Source: a virus. Taken from it: a stretch of DNA of 21,075 nucleotides. Shown here piece after piece: positions 2,809-20,463 of this stretch; position 1 is the first letter of the stretch, and the number at the start of each line of letters is the position of its first letter. Below the pieces are notes generated by a model. The model was not told the origin of the DNA. It saw only the letters and a program-made list of their open reading frames with translations, and ran no database searches. The stretch lies in the IMG/VR virus record IMGVR_UViG_3300006810_000506, positions 1 to 21,075 of that record. One strand, written 5' to 3'. The translations under genes and the position numbers were made by a program.

Positions 2809-3129
2809 ATGACAGGATTTGAGCAAGCAGACAAAGACCAGAACGGTCATGTGGACAAAGCTGAATGGGAGTCTATGCGTCTGGAGTTTGAACGTGAAAG
2901 GCTCATCGATGAAAACCTCAAGAGAGATTCGCAAAGACGTATGGCGTGGTTTAGCCTCATTGGTATGCTTGTTTATCCTAGTGGGGTTGTGGTGTCTAGC
3001 TTTATGGGTCTTGATAAAGCTGCTGATCTCCTCGCCTCTATGAGCAACATCTACTACGTCAGTATCGCGGCTTTAGTGGGTGCATATTTTTCTGTAACTA
3101 ACCTCAAACTAGGGGGTGAAAAGAAATGA
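2809..3129 (+). CDS. EF-hand membrane protein, holin-like, 106 aa
   Basis: Residues 8-19 read DKDQNGHVDKAE, a canonical EF-hand calcium loop: Asp8, Asp10, Asn12, Gly13, Asp16 and Glu19 are all in register. A charged helix (about 20-44) follows, then two hydrophobic segments at about 46-66 and 80-97 with a Lys-rich end. Two TM segments plus position directly before the three-TM holin and the lysozyme suggest a holin, antiholin or holin regulator. The N-terminal EF-hand may sense divalent cations. I remember similar EF-hand two-TM proteins from marine phage lysis regions. No good SD is visible, so initiation may be weak. Its stop overlaps the next start (ATGA). Confidence 0.75.
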   Translation: MTGFEQADKDQNGHVDKAEWESMRLEFERERLIDENLKRDSQRRMAWFSLIGMLVYPSGVVVSSFMGLDKAADLLASMSNIYYVSIAALVGAYFSVTNLKLGGEKK

Positions 3130-3476
3130 TTGGTGCAATTATTGGTGCAGTTGGCGAGATTGCAGGGTCTTGGGTTAAAGGCAAAGCAGATGAAGCTAAG
3201 GCTAAACAGCAAGCCAAGCTTAGAGTCCTTGAGAACGAAGGCAACTGGGAACAGATCATGGCTAAGGGTGCAGCCAGCTCGTGGAAAGACGAGTGGTTCA
3301 CTATCATCCTGAGCATTCCGTTAATCGGTGCCTTTGTTCCTGATGCTGTGCCGTACATCATGGCAGGGTTTGAGGCTTTACAACAAACACCTGAGTGGTA
3401 TCAGTGGGCAGTGCTTGCGGCTATCTCTGCGAGCTTTGGTCTGCGCGGTATCAATAAATTCAAGGGGCTGAAATGA
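3126..3476 (+). CDS. Three-TM phage holin (GTA_holin_3TM-like), 116 aa
   Basis: This 116-residue protein has a Gly/Ile-rich N-terminal hydrophobic helix (MIGAIIGAVGEIAGS). A Lys/Ala/Glu-rich amphipathic helix follows at about 18-45, then the segment SSWKDEWFTIILSIPLIGAF. Two further hydrophobic stretches lie at about 58-84 and 94-110. The order and the KDEWFT...IP...F pattern match the holin family of phages and gene-transfer agents (Pfam GTA_holin_3TM). It would oligomerise in the inner membrane and release or activate the endolysin. It overlaps the EF-hand gene by four bases upstream and the lysozyme by four downstream, giving one coupled lysis unit. Family assignment is from memory of the pattern. 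Confidence 0.8.
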   Translation: MIGAIIGAVGEIAGSWVKGKADEAKAKQQAKLRVLENEGNWEQIMAKGAASSWKDEWFTIILSIPLIGAFVPDAVPYIMAGFEALQQTPEWYQWAVLAAISASFGLRGINKFKGLK

Positions 3477-3895
3477 CACTAGACGATTTAAAACTTCAGC
3501 TTGTTAAACATGAAGGGCTAGAGCTGATGCCGTACAAATGTACTGCTGGCAAGCTCACTATCGGGGTTGGTCGTAACATCGAGGATCGTGGTATCAGCTA
3601 TGCAGAGGCCATGATGCTGCTTGAGAATGACTTGATGCTGTACTCGTCTGAGCTAGGCAAAGCCTTCCCGATTGTCAGAGAGCTTAATACTGTGCGCAAG
3701 ATGACTTTGATCAACATGGCATTCAACCTGGGGCTGACTAAACTACGTCAGTTCAAGATGATGTGGGCTGCCATCGAGGACAATGATTTTGAAGTGGCTG
3801 CTCAAGAAATGCTTAATAGTAAGTGGGCTAGTGATGTGGGCAAGAGAGCACTTGAACTCAGTGAACAAATGAGAACTGGACTCTACAATGCGTGA
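3473..3895 (+). CDS. Endolysin, T4-type GH24 lysozyme, 140 aa
   Basis: This muramidase cleaves the N-acetylmuramic acid to N-acetylglucosamine linkage of peptidoglycan. The catalytic signature E-x8-(D/C)-x5-T is present as Glu14 (KHEGL), Cys23 and Thr29 (GKLTIGVGRN), with Cys at the middle position as in a subset of GH24 endolysins. NMAFNLGL at about residues 80-87 and the C-terminal SKWA..VGKRA region match the family's second lobe. At 140 residues it is slightly shorter than T4 lysozyme. There is no signal peptide or SAR segment, so release should depend on the holin just upstream, whose stop overlaps this ATG. SD AGGGG lies five bases before the start. Confidence 0.93.
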   Translation: MTLDDLKLQLVKHEGLELMPYKCTAGKLTIGVGRNIEDRGISYAEAMMLLENDLMLYSSELGKAFPIVRELNTVRKMTLINMAFNLGLTKLRQFKMMWAAIEDNDFEVAAQEMLNSKWASDVGKRALELSEQMRTGLYNA

Positions 3896-4157
3896 GAAAA
3901 GAAAAAACGGACTGCTAGGTCGTATCGGAGTATCAGGCTACAACAAGCCTAAGCGTACTCCGAATCATCCCACTAAAAGCCATGTAGTCGTGGCTAAAGA
4001 GGGCGGCAAGACTAAGACCATACGCTTTGGTCAACAAGGCGTTACAGGCTCTCCTGACGGCTCTAAACGCAACAAAGCATTCAAGGCTAGACACGCTAAG
4101 AATATTGCCAAAGGCAAAATGTCTGCTGCTTACTGGGCCAACAAGACTAAGTGGTGA
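3888..4157 (+). CDS. Basic DUF6321-like phage protein, 89 aa
   Basis: This 89-residue, Lys/Arg-rich protein starts eight bases inside the lysozyme gene. Conserved-looking blocks are GVSGYNKPKRTPNHPTKSH, KTKTIRFGQQGVTGSP and the C-terminal FKARHAKNIAKGKMSAAYW. I recognise these blocks as a widespread phage family of unknown function (DUF6321, from memory). The pattern of a small beta domain followed by a basic helical tail suggests binding to nucleic acid or to a virion surface, but no enzyme motif is present. It is the last gene of this plus-strand block; a promoter and terminator follow within 140 bases. Confidence 0.8.
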   Translation: MREKRKNGLLGRIGVSGYNKPKRTPNHPTKSHVVVAKEGGKTKTIRFGQQGVTGSPDGSKRNKAFKARHAKNIAKGKMSAAYWANKTKW

Positions 4158-4163
4158 TACTTG

Positions 4164-4191
4164 TAGACAGCCAAGATTGATTGTGTATAGT
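4164..4191 (+). promoter_or_regulatory. sigma70-like promoter P1
   Basis: TAGACA (4164-4169, 5 of 6 to TTGACA) is followed by a 16-base spacer and TATAGT (4186-4191, 5 of 6 to TATAAT). The predicted start is near 4197-4198. The 10-mer TTGTGTATAG at 4181-4190 recurs exactly at 20310-20319 in front of the coat gene. Confidence 0.6.
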
Positions 4192-4196
4192 TAATC

Positions 4197-4291
4197 CATC
4201 GTTCCCGCAAAGGTCGATGTTTCTGATTCTTTTTTCATCAGATTTTCCTTTAGTTGACTTAGCCCCGTATCCTCTACGGGGCATTTTTTTG
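4197..4291 (+). ncRNA. Candidate phage small RNA 1, about 95 nt
   Basis: The stretch begins about six bases after promoter P1 and ends in a strong terminator, with no credible gene inside. Predicted hairpins are CATCG 4197-4201 with CGATG 4215-4219, and TCTGAT 4222-4227 with ATCAGA 4237-4242 around a U-rich nine-base loop. The terminator stem is the third. The linker at 4243-4261 is left unpaired and reads TTTTCCTTTAGTTG at 4243-4256. Thirteen of those bases (4244-4256) are the exact reverse complement of 10458-10470, the SD region of gene 10479. U-rich stretches could serve Hfq. Existence is inferred from promoter, folds and terminator; regulation is a hypothesis. Confidence 0.55.
4262..4290 (+). 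terminator. Rho-independent terminator
   Basis: GCCCCGTA (4262-4269) pairs perfectly with TACGGGGC (4275-4282) around TCCTC, followed by A and seven Ts (4284-4290). It also stops read-through from the lysis operon. The T-run exists only on the plus strand. Confidence 0.92.
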
Positions 4292-4336
4292 CCTGAACCC
4301 CTGCTAAGTCACTTAAAATTAAACACTTAAAGGGGG

Positions 4337-4364
4337 TTGTTAAGTACGTTTAACATGCTATAGT
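4337..4364 (+). promoter_or_regulatory. sigma70-like promoter P2 with extended -10
   Basis: TTGTTA (4337-4342), a 16-base spacer, and TATAGT (4359-4364) preceded by TGC, giving an extended -10. The predicted start is near 4371. It is the only strong promoter between the two terminators. A CACTTAAA direct repeat (4310-4317 and 4324-4331) lies just upstream and may be a binding site. Confidence 0.6.
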
Positions 4365-4370
4365 TAGCTT

Positions 4371-4483
4371 ACTCCTTGAGCTTGAAGTTGTAGTTGGCAC
4401 ATTTGCTCCTTTGCTCTCAAGGATAAGCCCCCTATCCCTTCACTCTCCTGTGATTTGGATGTATTTGCAAGGGGGCTTTTTTA
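4371..4483 (+). ncRNA. Candidate phage small RNA 2, about 110 nt
   Basis: This second unit runs from promoter P2 to a T-run. CCTTGAG (4374-4380) pairs perfectly with CTCAAGG (4416-4422) across a 35-base loop that contains CTCCTTT at 4406-4412. That heptamer is complementary to an AAAGGAG Shine-Dalgarno site, for example the one before the gene starting at 6492. The 3' domain is a long terminator hairpin with nested stems ATCC/GGAT and TCAC/GTGA. No plausible gene lies inside. Its 3' end touches the stop codon of the convergent methyltransferase gene. Confidence rests on the promoter, two folds and terminator; a target is not established. Confidence 0.5.
4425..4482 (+). terminator. Terminator with a large structured loop
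   Basis: AAGCCCCCT (4425-4433) pairs with AGGGGGCTT (4470-4478), and the T-run spans 4477-4482. The 36-base loop contains its own stem TCAC 4440-4443 with GTGA 4450-4453. It is directional for the plus strand: the minus-strand side has no T-run. Confidence 0.75.
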
Positions 4484-5365
4484 TGCCTGATATTCCATGT
4501 AAGCCTTTATGATTTCCGCTGCGACTTGCGGGACAATGGCGTTACCTGCTCCCCTGAGTAAGCCCACTCGATTGGGTATCCCATAAGCCAAAGGGAAAAG
4601 CGCGGGTTCAGTTGGGATTTCTCTCCATTTGCCATCTCGGCATTGAATGGCACTTGATCCTTGATGTTGCTGCATCCAGCTTTTTGCTTTGCTCTTGCTA
4701 GAGCCTCGTCCGATCTCGGAGCCATCGAGTCCATCGCATTCGGTGTTCCCCAGGGAACCATTACTGGAGCAAAGTTGGCTAACTGTCCCATGTGCGCTCT
4801 CTCTCCGTTCTCCATCTTCTTGATGGTATTTGGAATGCTGTTGGCTCCCTTGTAATCCCTTGCTGCTGGCGTTGGCCACGAAGAAAAGTCGTTCCCTTTT
4901 GTGCGGGGCACCGACGCTGCAAGCTGGCAATACTGCCATTGCTGTGGCGTAACCTTCTGCTTCCATGTCAGCTTGTAGATCATCGAACCACTCTGTTCTA
5001 ATTGCTGAGGCAACTTGCTCGCCAAATACTGTTGGAGGCGAACACTCTCTGATGAGATTGAAGAAGTGAGGCCAGAGGTGTCGCTCATCTTCTTGGGCTT
5101 TTCCACTTCCGGCAACTGAGAAAGGCTGACAGGGTGGTGATCCTGTCCAAACAGGTCGAGCTGATTCCCATCCTGCGAGTTGGAGAGCATAGCTCCAACC
5201 TCCGATTCCAGCGAAGAAATGACATTGCGTAAACCCTTCAAGGTCTGAAGGATCGACATCAATGATTGATCGTTCATCGACTTCCCCTTGTGGTATTAAC
5301 CCATCAGCAATGAGCTGGCGTAACCAGCTCGCTGCAAATGGATCGAACTCGTTATAATAGTTCAT
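4481..5365 (-). CDS. DNA (cytosine-5) methyltransferase, 294 aa
   Basis: This protein transfers a methyl group from SAM to C5 of cytosine in DNA. Visible motifs: motif I FFAGIGG (50-56, SAM binding), motif IV GSPPCQPFS with catalytic Cys79, motif VI as FGEQV (Glu-Gln-Val instead of the usual ENV), and motif VIII as APHKRERLFFVA (near 155-165). A Gly/Ser/Lys-rich target-recognition region covers about 170-250, and motif X is GNAIVPQVA near the end. It starts at the stop of the SSB-like gene (TAATG). No restriction enzyme is adjacent, so it probably protects phage DNA or regulates. Most of the gene is also open in another frame that looks genuine. Confidence 0.93.
   Translation of the reverse strand: MNYYNEFDPFAASWLRQLIADGLIPQGEVDERSIIDVDPSDLEGFTQCHFFAGIGGWSYALQLAGWESARPVWTGSPPCQPFSVAGSGKAQEDERHLWPHFFNLIRECSPPTVFGEQVASAIRTEWFDDLQADMEAEGYATAMAVLPACSVGAPHKRERLFFVANASSKGLQGSQQHSKYHQEDGERRESAHGTVSQLCSSNGSLGNTECDGLDGSEIGRGSSKSKAKSWMQQHQGSSAIQCRDGKWREIPTEPALFPLAYGIPNRVGLLRGAGNAIVPQVAAEIIKAYMEYQA
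4507..5277 (-). CDS. Overlapping-frame protein inside the methyltransferase gene, 256 aa
   Basis: This frame lies wholly inside the C5-methyltransferase gene, shifted +1, and stays open for 256 codons. ATG 5277 has SD AAGGGG six bases upstream. Its product has recognisable blocks: LDLFGQ (about 41-46), IYKLTWKQKVTP, SWPTPAARDYKG and NPRFSLWLMGYPIEWAYSGE near the C-terminus. I remember very similar proteins, usually hypothetical, encoded in the alternative frame of phage and prophage methyltransferase genes, so it appears conserved as a protein. Function unknown; a methyltransferase partner or specificity factor is conceivable. The alternative is a shadow frame kept open by constraint on the enzyme, but the blocks and the SD argue against that. 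Confidence 0.6.
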   Translation of the reverse strand: MNDQSLMSILQTLKGLRNVISSLESEVGAMLSNSQDGNQLDLFGQDHHPVSLSQLPEVEKPKKMSDTSGLTSSISSESVRLQQYLASKLPQQLEQSGSMIYKLTWKQKVTPQQWQYCQLAASVPRTKGNDFSSWPTPAARDYKGANSIPNTIKKMENGERAHMGQLANFAPVMVPWGTPNAMDSMAPRSDEALARAKQKAGCSNIKDQVPFNAEMANGEKSQLNPRFSLWLMGYPIEWAYSGEQVTPLSRKSQRKS

Positions 5366-5619
5366 TAAAAGGGAATGTCTTCTGATGGGTCTGCTTCCTT
5401 AACTGGAGCTGCTTTAGGCGCTGCATCCTTATCCTTTGGAGTCAGTCTTAGCTTCAGCACTGGTGAATTAGGCTTAGCATCCTCTGCTGCTCGCCATGCA
5501 GATACCCAATAATCAATACCGTCAACTATGCCGTTACCTTTGTAGTGCGGGTGCTTTTCTGTTTCACGGTTATCGTTCTTCCAGATTGCGATTTCATTGT
5601 TGTTATCGTATTCAGCCAT
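5365..5619 (-). CDS. SSB-like OB-fold protein, 84 aa
   Basis: The first 60 residues carry the pattern IAIWKND..ETEKHPHYKGNG followed by GIDYWVSAWR and a beta-rich KLRLTPK segment. I associate this pattern with small phage OB-fold proteins that bind single-stranded DNA. The end is an Ala/Lys/Pro linker and the acidic tip DPSEDIPF. That tip matches the C-terminal peptide by which bacterial SSB recruits partner proteins. A DNA-binding role beside the annealing protein upstream fits a recombination module. SD AGGAG lies seven bases before ATG, and the start overlaps the preceding stop. At 84 residues it is about half the length of bacterial SSB. Confidence 0.7.
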   Translation of the reverse strand: MAEYDNNNEIAIWKNDNRETEKHPHYKGNGIVDGIDYWVSAWRAAEDAKPNSPVLKLRLTPKDKDAAPKAAPVKEADPSEDIPF

Positions 5620-5885
5620 TAAAGGACTCCTGCGACTGATGCCGCTGTTATTGTAAAAATGATACCGAGGACAAAACCACCAACAACGCCAAGGCGTATG
5701 TCAGAAGCTTTGTAATGGTTAGGTACAGTGAGTTGTTGTTTAGATTTGTTTTCTTCCCACGTTTTCTTGTGTCGATAAACGCAGCTAGTTGCTATCCCAT
5801 ACTTTTTAGAAATTTTATAAGGTGTCATATTAGGGTGCATATCAAGCAGCTCCCATACAACTTTTTCCATTGATCTTTTACGCAT
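5619..5885 (-). CDS. HTH protein with C-terminal membrane anchor, 88 aa
   Basis: Start chosen at ATG 5885 because SD GGAG sits six bases upstream and the start overlaps the previous stop by eight bases; in-frame ATGs further up lack this. Residues about 12-45 form a helix-turn-helix of the homeodomain-like or transposase type (MTPYKISKKYGIATSCVYRHKK). The C-terminal 23 residues (GVVGGFVLGIIFTITAASVAGVL) form one hydrophobic helix. A DNA-binding head on a membrane anchor is unusual for a phage protein of this size. Possible roles are tethering phage DNA or a replication complex to the inner membrane, or regulation from the membrane. None is proved by sequence. Confidence 0.7.
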   Translation of the reverse strand: MRKRSMEKVVWELLDMHPNMTPYKISKKYGIATSCVYRHKKTWEENKSKQQLTVPNHYKASDIRLGVVGGFVLGIIFTITAASVAGVL

Positions 5886-6492
5886 TAGATTCTCCATTAA
5901 CAAGCAATGTAAATTGCTTTAGTTTGTTAGCGCCATCATGTTCACTATTGATGTACTCAGACTTAACGTAGTCTTTCACTTGAGGGTCTTCGCATAGCTC
6001 TTCATACACTTCTTTAGCACCAGCTCCATCGTTGTTCTCAAGGTGTAGATTGATTGTCTTGATGAAACGATTACGCAATGCCGCTGTAATAGGTGGCTTA
6101 CCCTGAGCAGGTATATCCTCGCCACGATATATATACAGTCCAAGTCCTGTAGCTACGGCAACTGCCTTGACCAAGCAGCGTTGTCGAGCGTCACTGATCT
6201 GCCGTGAAGTTGGGTTGGGGACTGAGTTGTTTCGATGATCCATGACAGGTAGGTACATGATGCGACTGAACGCATGCTCACCTTCTTTAATGATGACAGT
6301 ACATGACACCTCAACAGTGTCGTCTGGGTAATACTTAGGATCACCAAATTCGTAGTTAGATTCAGGGTAGTAGTCAGCCAGGGTAGCCCAGCAGTCACTC
6401 CATGAGAGATAAGTCAGATTCATTTTTTTGGAGGTTTTGTCATTCACGTTAAGGCGTGACATCTCCTGCCATACTCGGCGCTCAAAGCTCAT
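5878..6492 (-). CDS. DUF1071 (Sak3-like) single-strand annealing protein, 204 aa
   Basis: Start chosen at ATG 6492: SD AAGGAG lies five bases upstream, and ATGA overlaps the preceding stop. Fourteen extra in-frame codons upstream lack an SD. Recognisable blocks are LNVNDKTSKKMNLTYLSW (near 15-32), YLPVMDHRNNSV, and ARQRCLVKAVAVATGLGLYIYRGEDIP (near 100-128). This order matches the DUF1071/Sak3 group of phage annealing proteins as I remember it. Such proteins anneal complementary single strands during recombination and replication, usually beside an SSB, as here. The C-terminal 70 residues are less conserved and helical. The SD leader reads CAACCTAAAGGAG, close to a motif complementary to small RNA 1. 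Confidence 0.8.
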   Translation of the reverse strand: MSFERRVWQEMSRLNVNDKTSKKMNLTYLSWSDCWATLADYYPESNYEFGDPKYYPDDTVEVSCTVIIKEGEHAFSRIMYLPVMDHRNNSVPNPTSRQISDARQRCLVKAVAVATGLGLYIYRGEDIPAQGKPPITAALRNRFIKTINLHLENNDGAGAKEVYEELCEDPQVKDYVKSEYINSEHDGANKLKQFTLLVNGESNA

Positions 6493-7165: not shown

Positions 7166-7191
7166 GTCGTGCCTCCGTAATTGGAGTTGTA

Positions 7192-7220
7192 AAGATAGCC
7201 TAACAAATGTTATCTTGCAA
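7192..7220 (-). promoter_or_regulatory. Promoter of the minus-strand operon
   Basis: On the minus strand TTGCAA (7220-7215) is followed by 17 bases and TATCTT (7197-7192), each 4 of 6 to consensus. The predicted start is near 7185, about 20 bases before the ATG. The -35 is one of the three TTGCAA palindromes, so binding there should block it. Confidence 0.5.
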
Positions 7221-7243
7221 CCCCTATTGCAAAAGTTTAAAAG
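7215..7243 (+). promoter_or_regulatory. Possible promoter of the plus-strand early operon
   Basis: TTGCAA (7215-7220), a 17-base spacer and TAAAAG (7238-7243) are each 4 of 6 to consensus. It would share its -35 palindrome with the divergent promoter, giving back-to-back control. Weak boxes make this tentative. Confidence 0.3.
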
Positions 7244-7263
7244 CTCACCTAATCTATTGCAAA
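7215..7263. promoter_or_regulatory. Operator-like cluster of three TTGCAA palindromes
   Basis: TTGCAA occurs at 7215-7220, 7227-7232 and 7257-7262. The last two sit in identical decamers CTATTGCAAA spaced 30 bases apart. TTGCAA is its own reverse complement. They overlap the predicted divergent promoters and precede a small regulator-like gene, so they are likely repressor sites. The binding protein is inferred to be that gene's product. Confidence 0.5.
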
Positions 7264-7294
7264 CAATTACTCACAACTAAAGACAGGAGTCATT

Positions 7295-7471
7295 ATGGAA
7301 CAACCCTCACTCTATCTAAAGATTCAGCAGCAGCTCTCAGATCGAAACCTGTCGATTGTTGCAGAGCGCACTGGCATTGATCAGCACAAGCTATGGCGTA
7401 TAGCGCGTGGTGTATCGAAGCGCCCGAAACTAGAGGACATTGAAAAGATAATGCGTTACCTGGAGGGCTAA
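7295..7471 (+). CDS. Small HTH regulator, 58 aa
   Basis: ATG 7295 is preceded by SD AGGAG (7285-7289). The 58-residue protein has the layout of a minimal Cro/CI-type helix-turn-helix. Residues about 18-40 read NLSIVAERTGIDQHKLWRIARG, where VAERTG begins the first helix and HKLWRIARG is the recognition helix. A C-terminal helix DIEKIMRYLEG follows. The size leaves no dimerisation or cleavage domain, so it resembles Cro more than CI. It sits beside three TTGCAA palindromes and opens the plus-strand early operon, so autoregulation and control of the divergent operon are likely. A short leader motif, CACAACTAAAG, lies just before its SD. Confidence 0.75.
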   Translation: MEQPSLYLKIQQQLSDRNLSIVAERTGIDQHKLWRIARGVSKRPKLEDIEKIMRYLEG

Positions 7472-20150: not shown

Positions 20151-20175
20151 TCAAAGCCCTTCATAAGGCCCTTCT

Positions 20176-20198
20176 AAGCCCCTTCCGAGGGGCTTTTT
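20176..20198 (+). terminator. Rho-independent terminator after the scaffold gene
   Basis: AAGCCCCT (20176-20183) pairs perfectly with AGGGGCTT (20188-20195) around TCCG, followed by five Ts. It isolates the coat gene, which therefore needs its own promoter. Confidence 0.9.
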
Positions 20199-20213
20199 AG
20201 TGCCTGTCAGAAA

Positions 20214-20260
20214 AATAAAACCAAGTTTTTGGTAATTGACAAATAATAAAACCAAGTTTT
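20214..20260. repeat. Two exact 16-base direct repeats before the coat gene
   Basis: AATAAAACCAAGTTTT is found at 20214-20229 and 20245-20260, 31 bases apart. Each contains AAAAC-CAA-GTTTT, an inverted repeat. A perfect TTGACA (20236-20241) lies between them, but the nearest TATAAA is 22 bases downstream. Candidate activator or operator sites. Confidence 0.7.
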
Positions 20261-20291
20261 CGATATAAATTGAAAGTAATTTATAAAGTAG

Positions 20292-20320
20292 TTGTTGCAA
20301 CTTGCTGTTTTGTGTATAGA
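20292..20320 (+). promoter_or_regulatory. Promoter of the coat gene
   Basis: TTGTTG (20292-20297), 17 bases, TATAGA (20315-20320). The TTGTGTATAG at 20310-20319 is identical to the one in front of small RNA 1. GTTGCAAC (20294-20301), an eight-base palindrome containing TTGCAA, overlaps the -35. Confidence 0.5.
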
Positions 20321-20326
20321 ATCAAG

Positions 20327-20463
20327 TCAGGCTAATCGGAATCCCGACCCTAAATAGTAGTACTCTACTCAACGGGCGAGTTGTAAAACGCAAGTTCAGG
20401 CCCACGCAATGTGGACAACCATAAGAGCGACACTTAACCGTATTTATTGATCAGGAGATCACA
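20327..20463 (+). promoter_or_regulatory. Long structured leader of the coat mRNA
   Basis: The predicted start near 20327 leaves about 137 untranslated bases with several short stems: AGTAG/CTACT, CAAC/GTTG and CCAC/GTGG. At the end TGATC (20448-20452) pairs with GATCA (20457-20461) and the loop AGGA displays the SD. Such leaders usually stabilise or boost abundant mRNAs; the role here is inferred. Confidence 0.45.

Follow-up and report, generated by a model that had tools for sequence, protein, structure and literature searches.

A putative phage small-RNA gene in tandem with a terminator region between convergent gene blocks

Between the late and early gene blocks of this phage lies a gap of 323 bases that holds two terminator-ended units. 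The first of these (4197–4291), which a sequence-only reading had proposed as a complete small-RNA gene, is a real terminator region and is uncertain as a gene; the second (4337–4484), missed in that reading, is the better small-RNA candidate. Our preferred explanation, held tentatively and with slightly less than even confidence, is that the gap combines the terminator hairpins of the late operon (unit 1) with a separate phage small-RNA (sRNA) gene in tandem (unit 2). Unit 2 is in our view a sound sRNA candidate, ordinary in kind, rather than a discovery.

Layout of the gap

The window (the whole stretch of DNA analysed, a virus record of 21,075 bases with 45.6% G+C) encodes a large terminase sharing 73.5% identity with its counterpart in Methylophilales phage MEP301, whose record gives a Methylophilales bacterium from seawater as the host. 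A terminase scan of genome contigs gave three metagenome-assembled contigs, 64–74% identical, and as these are labelled with three different phyla or classes the host is not nameable. Late genes on the + strand run up to the endolysin and then to an 89-amino-acid protein of unknown function (phrog_7595), which is common in marine phages (48 phage records and at least 598 viral stretches). The methyltransferase, single-strand binding protein and Sak-like annealing protein lie on the − strand, convergent with the late genes, and the stop codon of the last early gene starts at 4481. The gap between the two stop codons, 4158–4480, therefore separates the blocks, and the earlier placement of the first unit between two convergent gene blocks, without interruption of a gene, is borne out. 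No tRNA or tmRNA was found. The elements on which the following account draws are these:

3473–3895, + strand: endolysin, a late gene
3888–4157, + strand: 89-amino-acid protein (phrog_7595), the last late gene, its stop codon ending at 4157
4164–4191, + strand: promoter-like site 1, TAGACA-16-TATAGT, agreeing with the consensus at 10 of 12 positions; not recognised in haplotype 2
4186–4484, + strand: block common to two haplotypes with different flanks, from haplotype comparison
4197–4219, + strand: unit 1 hairpin 1, 5 pairs (stem 4197–4201/4215–4219)
4222–4242, + strand: unit 1 hairpin 2, 6 pairs with a U-rich loop (stem 4222–4227/4237–4242)
4243–4261, + strand: unit 1 linker, unpaired in the fold and containing UUCCUUU
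4262–4290, + strand: terminator 1, 8 pairs then ATTTTTTT (stem GCCCCGTA/TACGGGGC, 4262–4282)
4337–4364, + strand: promoter-like site 2, TTGTTA-16-TATAGT with TG before the second hexamer (extended −10); kept in haplotype 2
4338–4355, no strand assigned: dyad TGTTAA-N6-TTAACA, an exact match lying over promoter 2; possible operator
4371–4424, + strand: long 5′ hairpin of unit 2, TCCTTGAG/CTCAAGGA plus inner pairs (closing stem 4373–4423), at a putative start site
4425–4484, + strand: branched terminator 2 with TTTTTT, closed by AAGCCCCCT/AGGGGGCTT and overlapping the opposite-strand methyltransferase stop codon

Folding and coding content of the two units

Terminator 1, with six G–C among its eight pairs and ATTTTTTT directly behind them, is of the intrinsic (Rho-independent) type, and its fold alone has a z-score of −4.62, with 0 of 200 shuffles as good. 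The 95-nt fold of unit 1 as a whole scores similarly (z −4.44, 0/200), a value that is carried by the terminator since hairpins 1 and 2 with the linker reach only −1.48 and 17 of 200 shuffles fold equally well; the corresponding figures for the copy in contig L006 are −1.47 and 16 of 200. The terminator, which had been described as strong, is thus certain, and the promoter boxes and the unpaired linker of the earlier description are likewise present in the DNA. The two hairpins fared less uniformly: both stems exist and the second has the U-rich loop ascribed to it, but by energy they are not beyond chance. The linker at 4249–4263 is also 87% complementary over 15 nt to 4303–4317, just behind terminator 1, so that RNA transcribed past the terminator could adopt another fold around it.

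An ORF of 37 codons, with an ATG at about 4217, runs across 4197–4291. A coding reading was rejected as the loss of a single nucleotide disrupts this frame in haplotype 2; among + strand frames of at least 18 codons over the stretch (frames open at its end excluded), the unit 1 frame is the only one in the window and L006 has none. A noncoding unit 1 is therefore supported.

Unit 2 (4371–4484) folds with a z-score of −4.05, equalled by 0 of 200 shuffles, and its slightly shifted L006 copy scores −3.62. The 5′ hairpin of unit 2 by itself is weak (z −1.48, 16/200 in the window) and does better in L006 (z −2.71, 2/200). The dyad over promoter 2 adjoins an inverted repeat (4296–4309/4325–4338) and is the only exact copy in the window; with up to two mismatches it occurs at 7 places against 1.5 expected. 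Unit 2 also contains three CUCCU motifs, at 4372, 4406 and 4445 (P 0.0044 from 5000 shuffles, for a motif picked after inspection); when CUCCU and UUCCU are counted together P is 0.051, and the copy at 4445 is altered in haplotype 2. Unit 1 has one UUCCU and no CUCCU. The CUCCU motif resembles the anti-Shine-Dalgarno end of 16S rRNA.

Within the gap, the scan gave no terminator-like site on the − strand, so that RNA reading through from the early genes would be antisense to both units, a further possibility.

Conservation between two haplotypes and among relatives

The block at 4186–4484 was found in five viral contigs representing two haplotypes, L225 and L226 (window-like) versus L227, L228 and L229, of which L229 is the same contig as L006 (haplotype 2). 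Pattern scans of viral contigs with the two unit patterns and with the linker pattern each gave these same five, and a stricter loop pattern gave two of them. The block is 93% identical between haplotypes, whereas just upstream of it only 12 of 28 bases agree (16 differ), and haplotype 2 also diverges beyond the T-run of terminator 2 and has no gene for the 89-amino-acid protein at this place. With both flanks differing, the block is sharply bounded, by the −10 box of promoter 1 on one side and the T-run of terminator 2 on the other.

Aligned with MAFFT, 87 of 95 positions are identical in unit 1, 110 of 114 in unit 2 and 79 of 90 in the rest of the block. An earlier blastn count had given 90/95 for unit 1; the less favourable MAFFT recount is used throughout except for the endolysin comparison below. 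At fourfold-degenerate sites of the two flanking genes identity is 121/145 (endolysin 50/55, methyltransferase 71/90), and over 16 genes compared with L229 it is 600/730. Against the flanking fourfold sites unit 2 is better conserved (P 0.0009); the same comparison for unit 1 gives P 0.08, and P is 0.061 when the two units are set against the remainder of the block. Given that identity varies along these mosaic genomes, and that conservation at the fourfold sites of the endolysin by itself is not significantly below that of the units (P 0.18, blastn count), selection on unit 2 is likely, not proved.

The differences between haplotypes are unevenly placed. In unit 1, five of the eight fall in terminator 1, the fold of which drops from 8 to 6 pairs in L006. 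Conservation of the two hairpin stems in related phages had been named with the original claim as a test: both stems are unchanged in the single other haplotype, with one loop change in hairpin 1 and one deleted loop base in hairpin 2, and no further homologue was found. As only two haplotypes were compared there is no covariation, no double-sided (compensatory) change having been seen between them. A strict scan of haplotype 2 gave no promoter 1, where a looser TTGCAA-18-TATAAA is readable by eye, and promoter 2 is recognised there by the scan. All three haplotype differences in the dyad lie in its six central bases and none in its twelve half-site bases; those in unit 2 keep the overall fold at the cost of one inner pair.

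Searches beyond these five contigs used two covariance models, R1 and R2, the latter being the model of unit 2. Two relatives with terminases 92% identical (G003 and G004) keep part of the gene neighbourhood and have a different junction, which neither model matches. Neither model gave a match in 20 stretches of 10 relative phage records, or in MEP301, where about 100 bases separate the convergent blocks. Over 200 loci, a set lying outside the 80 terminase loci L002–L081 and the endolysin loci L282–L304, R2 returned known copies only, and R1 returned known copies plus weak matches in seven loci (L230 at 23.7 bits; L120, L208, L270, L272, L271 and L222 at 19.0 to 20.7 bits). A search with R1 of 40 records, which took in those behind 32 of the 80 loci L002–L081, matched two: the known copy and one match of 17 bits. 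In 299 genomes of the G033 phylum R1 gave four matches at E ≤ 0.01 against about three by chance, the best alignment being at the terminator, and R2 gave 0 of 299 in a run without a positive control. Annotated phages had no near match to the element, a distant search of them yielding nothing beyond a match of 30 nt in three Arthrobacter phage records (E 0.3), and plasmids had no match at E 0.1.

Two of the loci with weak R1 matches bear on the nature of unit 1. In L230 (endolysin 75% identical) and L270, two more distant endolysin relatives, a hairpin and terminator come directly behind the endolysin gene, no more than a few tens of bases from its stop, although the hairpin sequence is unrelated and there is no match with the unit 2 model. 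This position is consistent with unit 1 forming the 3′ end of the transcript of the lysis genes. Directly upstream on the same strand lies the late operon, which appears to continue straight into unit 1, and 4197–4291 is consequently at least equally well read as the 3′ end of that operon. Together with promoter 1 going unrecognised in haplotype 2, these observations make an independent unit 1 gene doubtful: of the complete small-RNA gene that had been claimed, the elements and the noncoding character stand, whereas its own promoter and its independence are in question.

Nowhere in the window is an Rfam gathering score reached. The closest likenesses of unit 1 are to anti-hemB (RF02837; 24.8 bits, E 0.00097 for 421 bases, gathering score 49.5), NmsRb (RF02877; 23.9 bits, gathering score 52) and the Betaproteobacteria toxic sRNA (RF02278; 22.1 bits, gathering score 50), all below threshold; the L006 copy gives 24.5, 21.6 and 24.0 bits respectively. 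A control stretch with another terminator had a best E of 0.026, which places the likeness of unit 1 somewhat above terminator background. In end-to-end alignment unit 1 and the three families have in common a stem with a U/C-rich loop, a pyrimidine-rich linker and GACUU before a GC-rich terminator with a U-run; hairpin 1 lies outside both the anti-hemB match (4220–4290) and the toxic-sRNA match (4231–4289). The resemblance is one of shape and not of membership. Both the toxic-sRNA family and a Bordetella RNA related to it are mentioned in PMC11722255.

Readings of the gap and possible function

Under the preferred explanation the block at 4186–4484 would be a cassette of two tandem noncoding units, each ended by an intrinsic terminator. 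Late mRNA would enter unit 1, where two small hairpins precede the terminator, and the chief role of this unit would be to end the late-operon transcript; a short 3′-end RNA might also be made here, either through processing or by transcription from a weak unit 1 promoter. Shielded by terminator 1, unit 2 (about 4371–4484) would be transcribed separately from promoter 2, probably under the control of a DNA-binding protein at the TGTTAA-N6-TTAACA dyad, and would most likely act by base-pairing of its CUCCU stretches with ribosome-binding sites of host (or phage) mRNAs. A separate unit 2 gene is favoured by the folds, the kept promoter 2 and dyad half-sites, the identity of 110/114, the sharp block edges and the three CUCCU motifs.

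The simplest competitor is a plain pair of tandem terminators, a double stop separating convergent operons in which the hairpins are incidental, the promoter matches fortuitous and no sRNA is made. We consider this improbable on balance but a substantial competitor. Promoter-like sites are indeed at chance level in the scanned region 3000–6000 (4 against 3.8 expected) and fewer than expected over the whole window (20 against 30); the statistically strong parts are both terminators; and the relatives end their lysis genes with a simple hairpin and terminator. Against it, the conservation of unit 2 extends over its whole length, beyond the terminator, and promoter 2 and the dyad half-sites persist in haplotype 2. 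The two readings differ in what unit 2 would mean: if transcribed, it would be a small regulatory RNA specific to this lineage and retained by phages that differ in the neighbouring sequence, and so a further example from an uncultured phage; otherwise the convergent operons are separated by a double terminator of the ordinary kind.

It is unlikely that 4197–4291 is itself an independent trans-acting sRNA expressed from TAGACA-16-TATAGT, with unit 2 as a second one. The promoter, hairpin and terminator elements that such a gene would use are there, the sub-threshold alignment to betaproteobacterial sRNA families exceeds that of the control, and the window has one further copy of a 10-mer of the promoter (TTGTGTATAG), lying at 20310 ahead of the capsid gene; but haplotype 2 lacks a recognised promoter 1, hairpins 1 and 2 do not exceed chance and the conservation of unit 1 against the flanking fourfold sites is only P 0.08. 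Least probable of all would be a DNA site, in which the repeats at 4296–4338 and the dyad at 4338–4355 serve protein binding, replication or recombination and are flanked by terminators. The inverted repeat and exact dyad do stand side by side, and the sharp edges of the common block suggest recombination there; yet the dyad overlies a promoter-like site, and the best conserved part is unit 2 rather than 4296–4355.

A bolder form of the preferred explanation would make the block a movable two-RNA cassette at the late/early operon junction, its tandem sRNAs blocking host translation starts, under a phage regulator, through CUCCUUU and UUCCUUU stretches like the 16S rRNA 3′ end, with early read-through able to titrate both; we give this little credence. 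As for targets within the phage, seven unpaired segments were compared with 44 phage translation starts and none paired beyond shuffles (lowest P 0.1). The U-run and U-rich loop of unit 1 are at most compatible with Hfq dependence. Lambda PreS and VP882 VpdS are phage sRNAs that act with Hfq, according to PMC12197685, and the present units would be like them in being small RNAs outside the phage protein genes with a proposed action on host messages. PreS and VpdS are demonstrated RNAs with tested partners, and the units here are known from their sequence.

Two other gaps in the window share short sequences with this one. Ahead of the major capsid gene, a gap of 313 bases (20151–20463) contains the second copy of the promoter 1 10-mer and a terminator-like stem, and its fold has a z-score of −2.13. 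Relatives conserve this gap well: identity is 88% over 180 nt in L012, L014 and L316, and L005 and L007 carry an insertion. Preceding the gene for a 58-amino-acid HTH regulator (7295–7471), the divergent gap between the two early blocks (7166–7294) has three copies of TTGCAA, at 7215, 7227 and 7257, and, at 7188–7205, a version of the unit 2 dyad with two mismatches.
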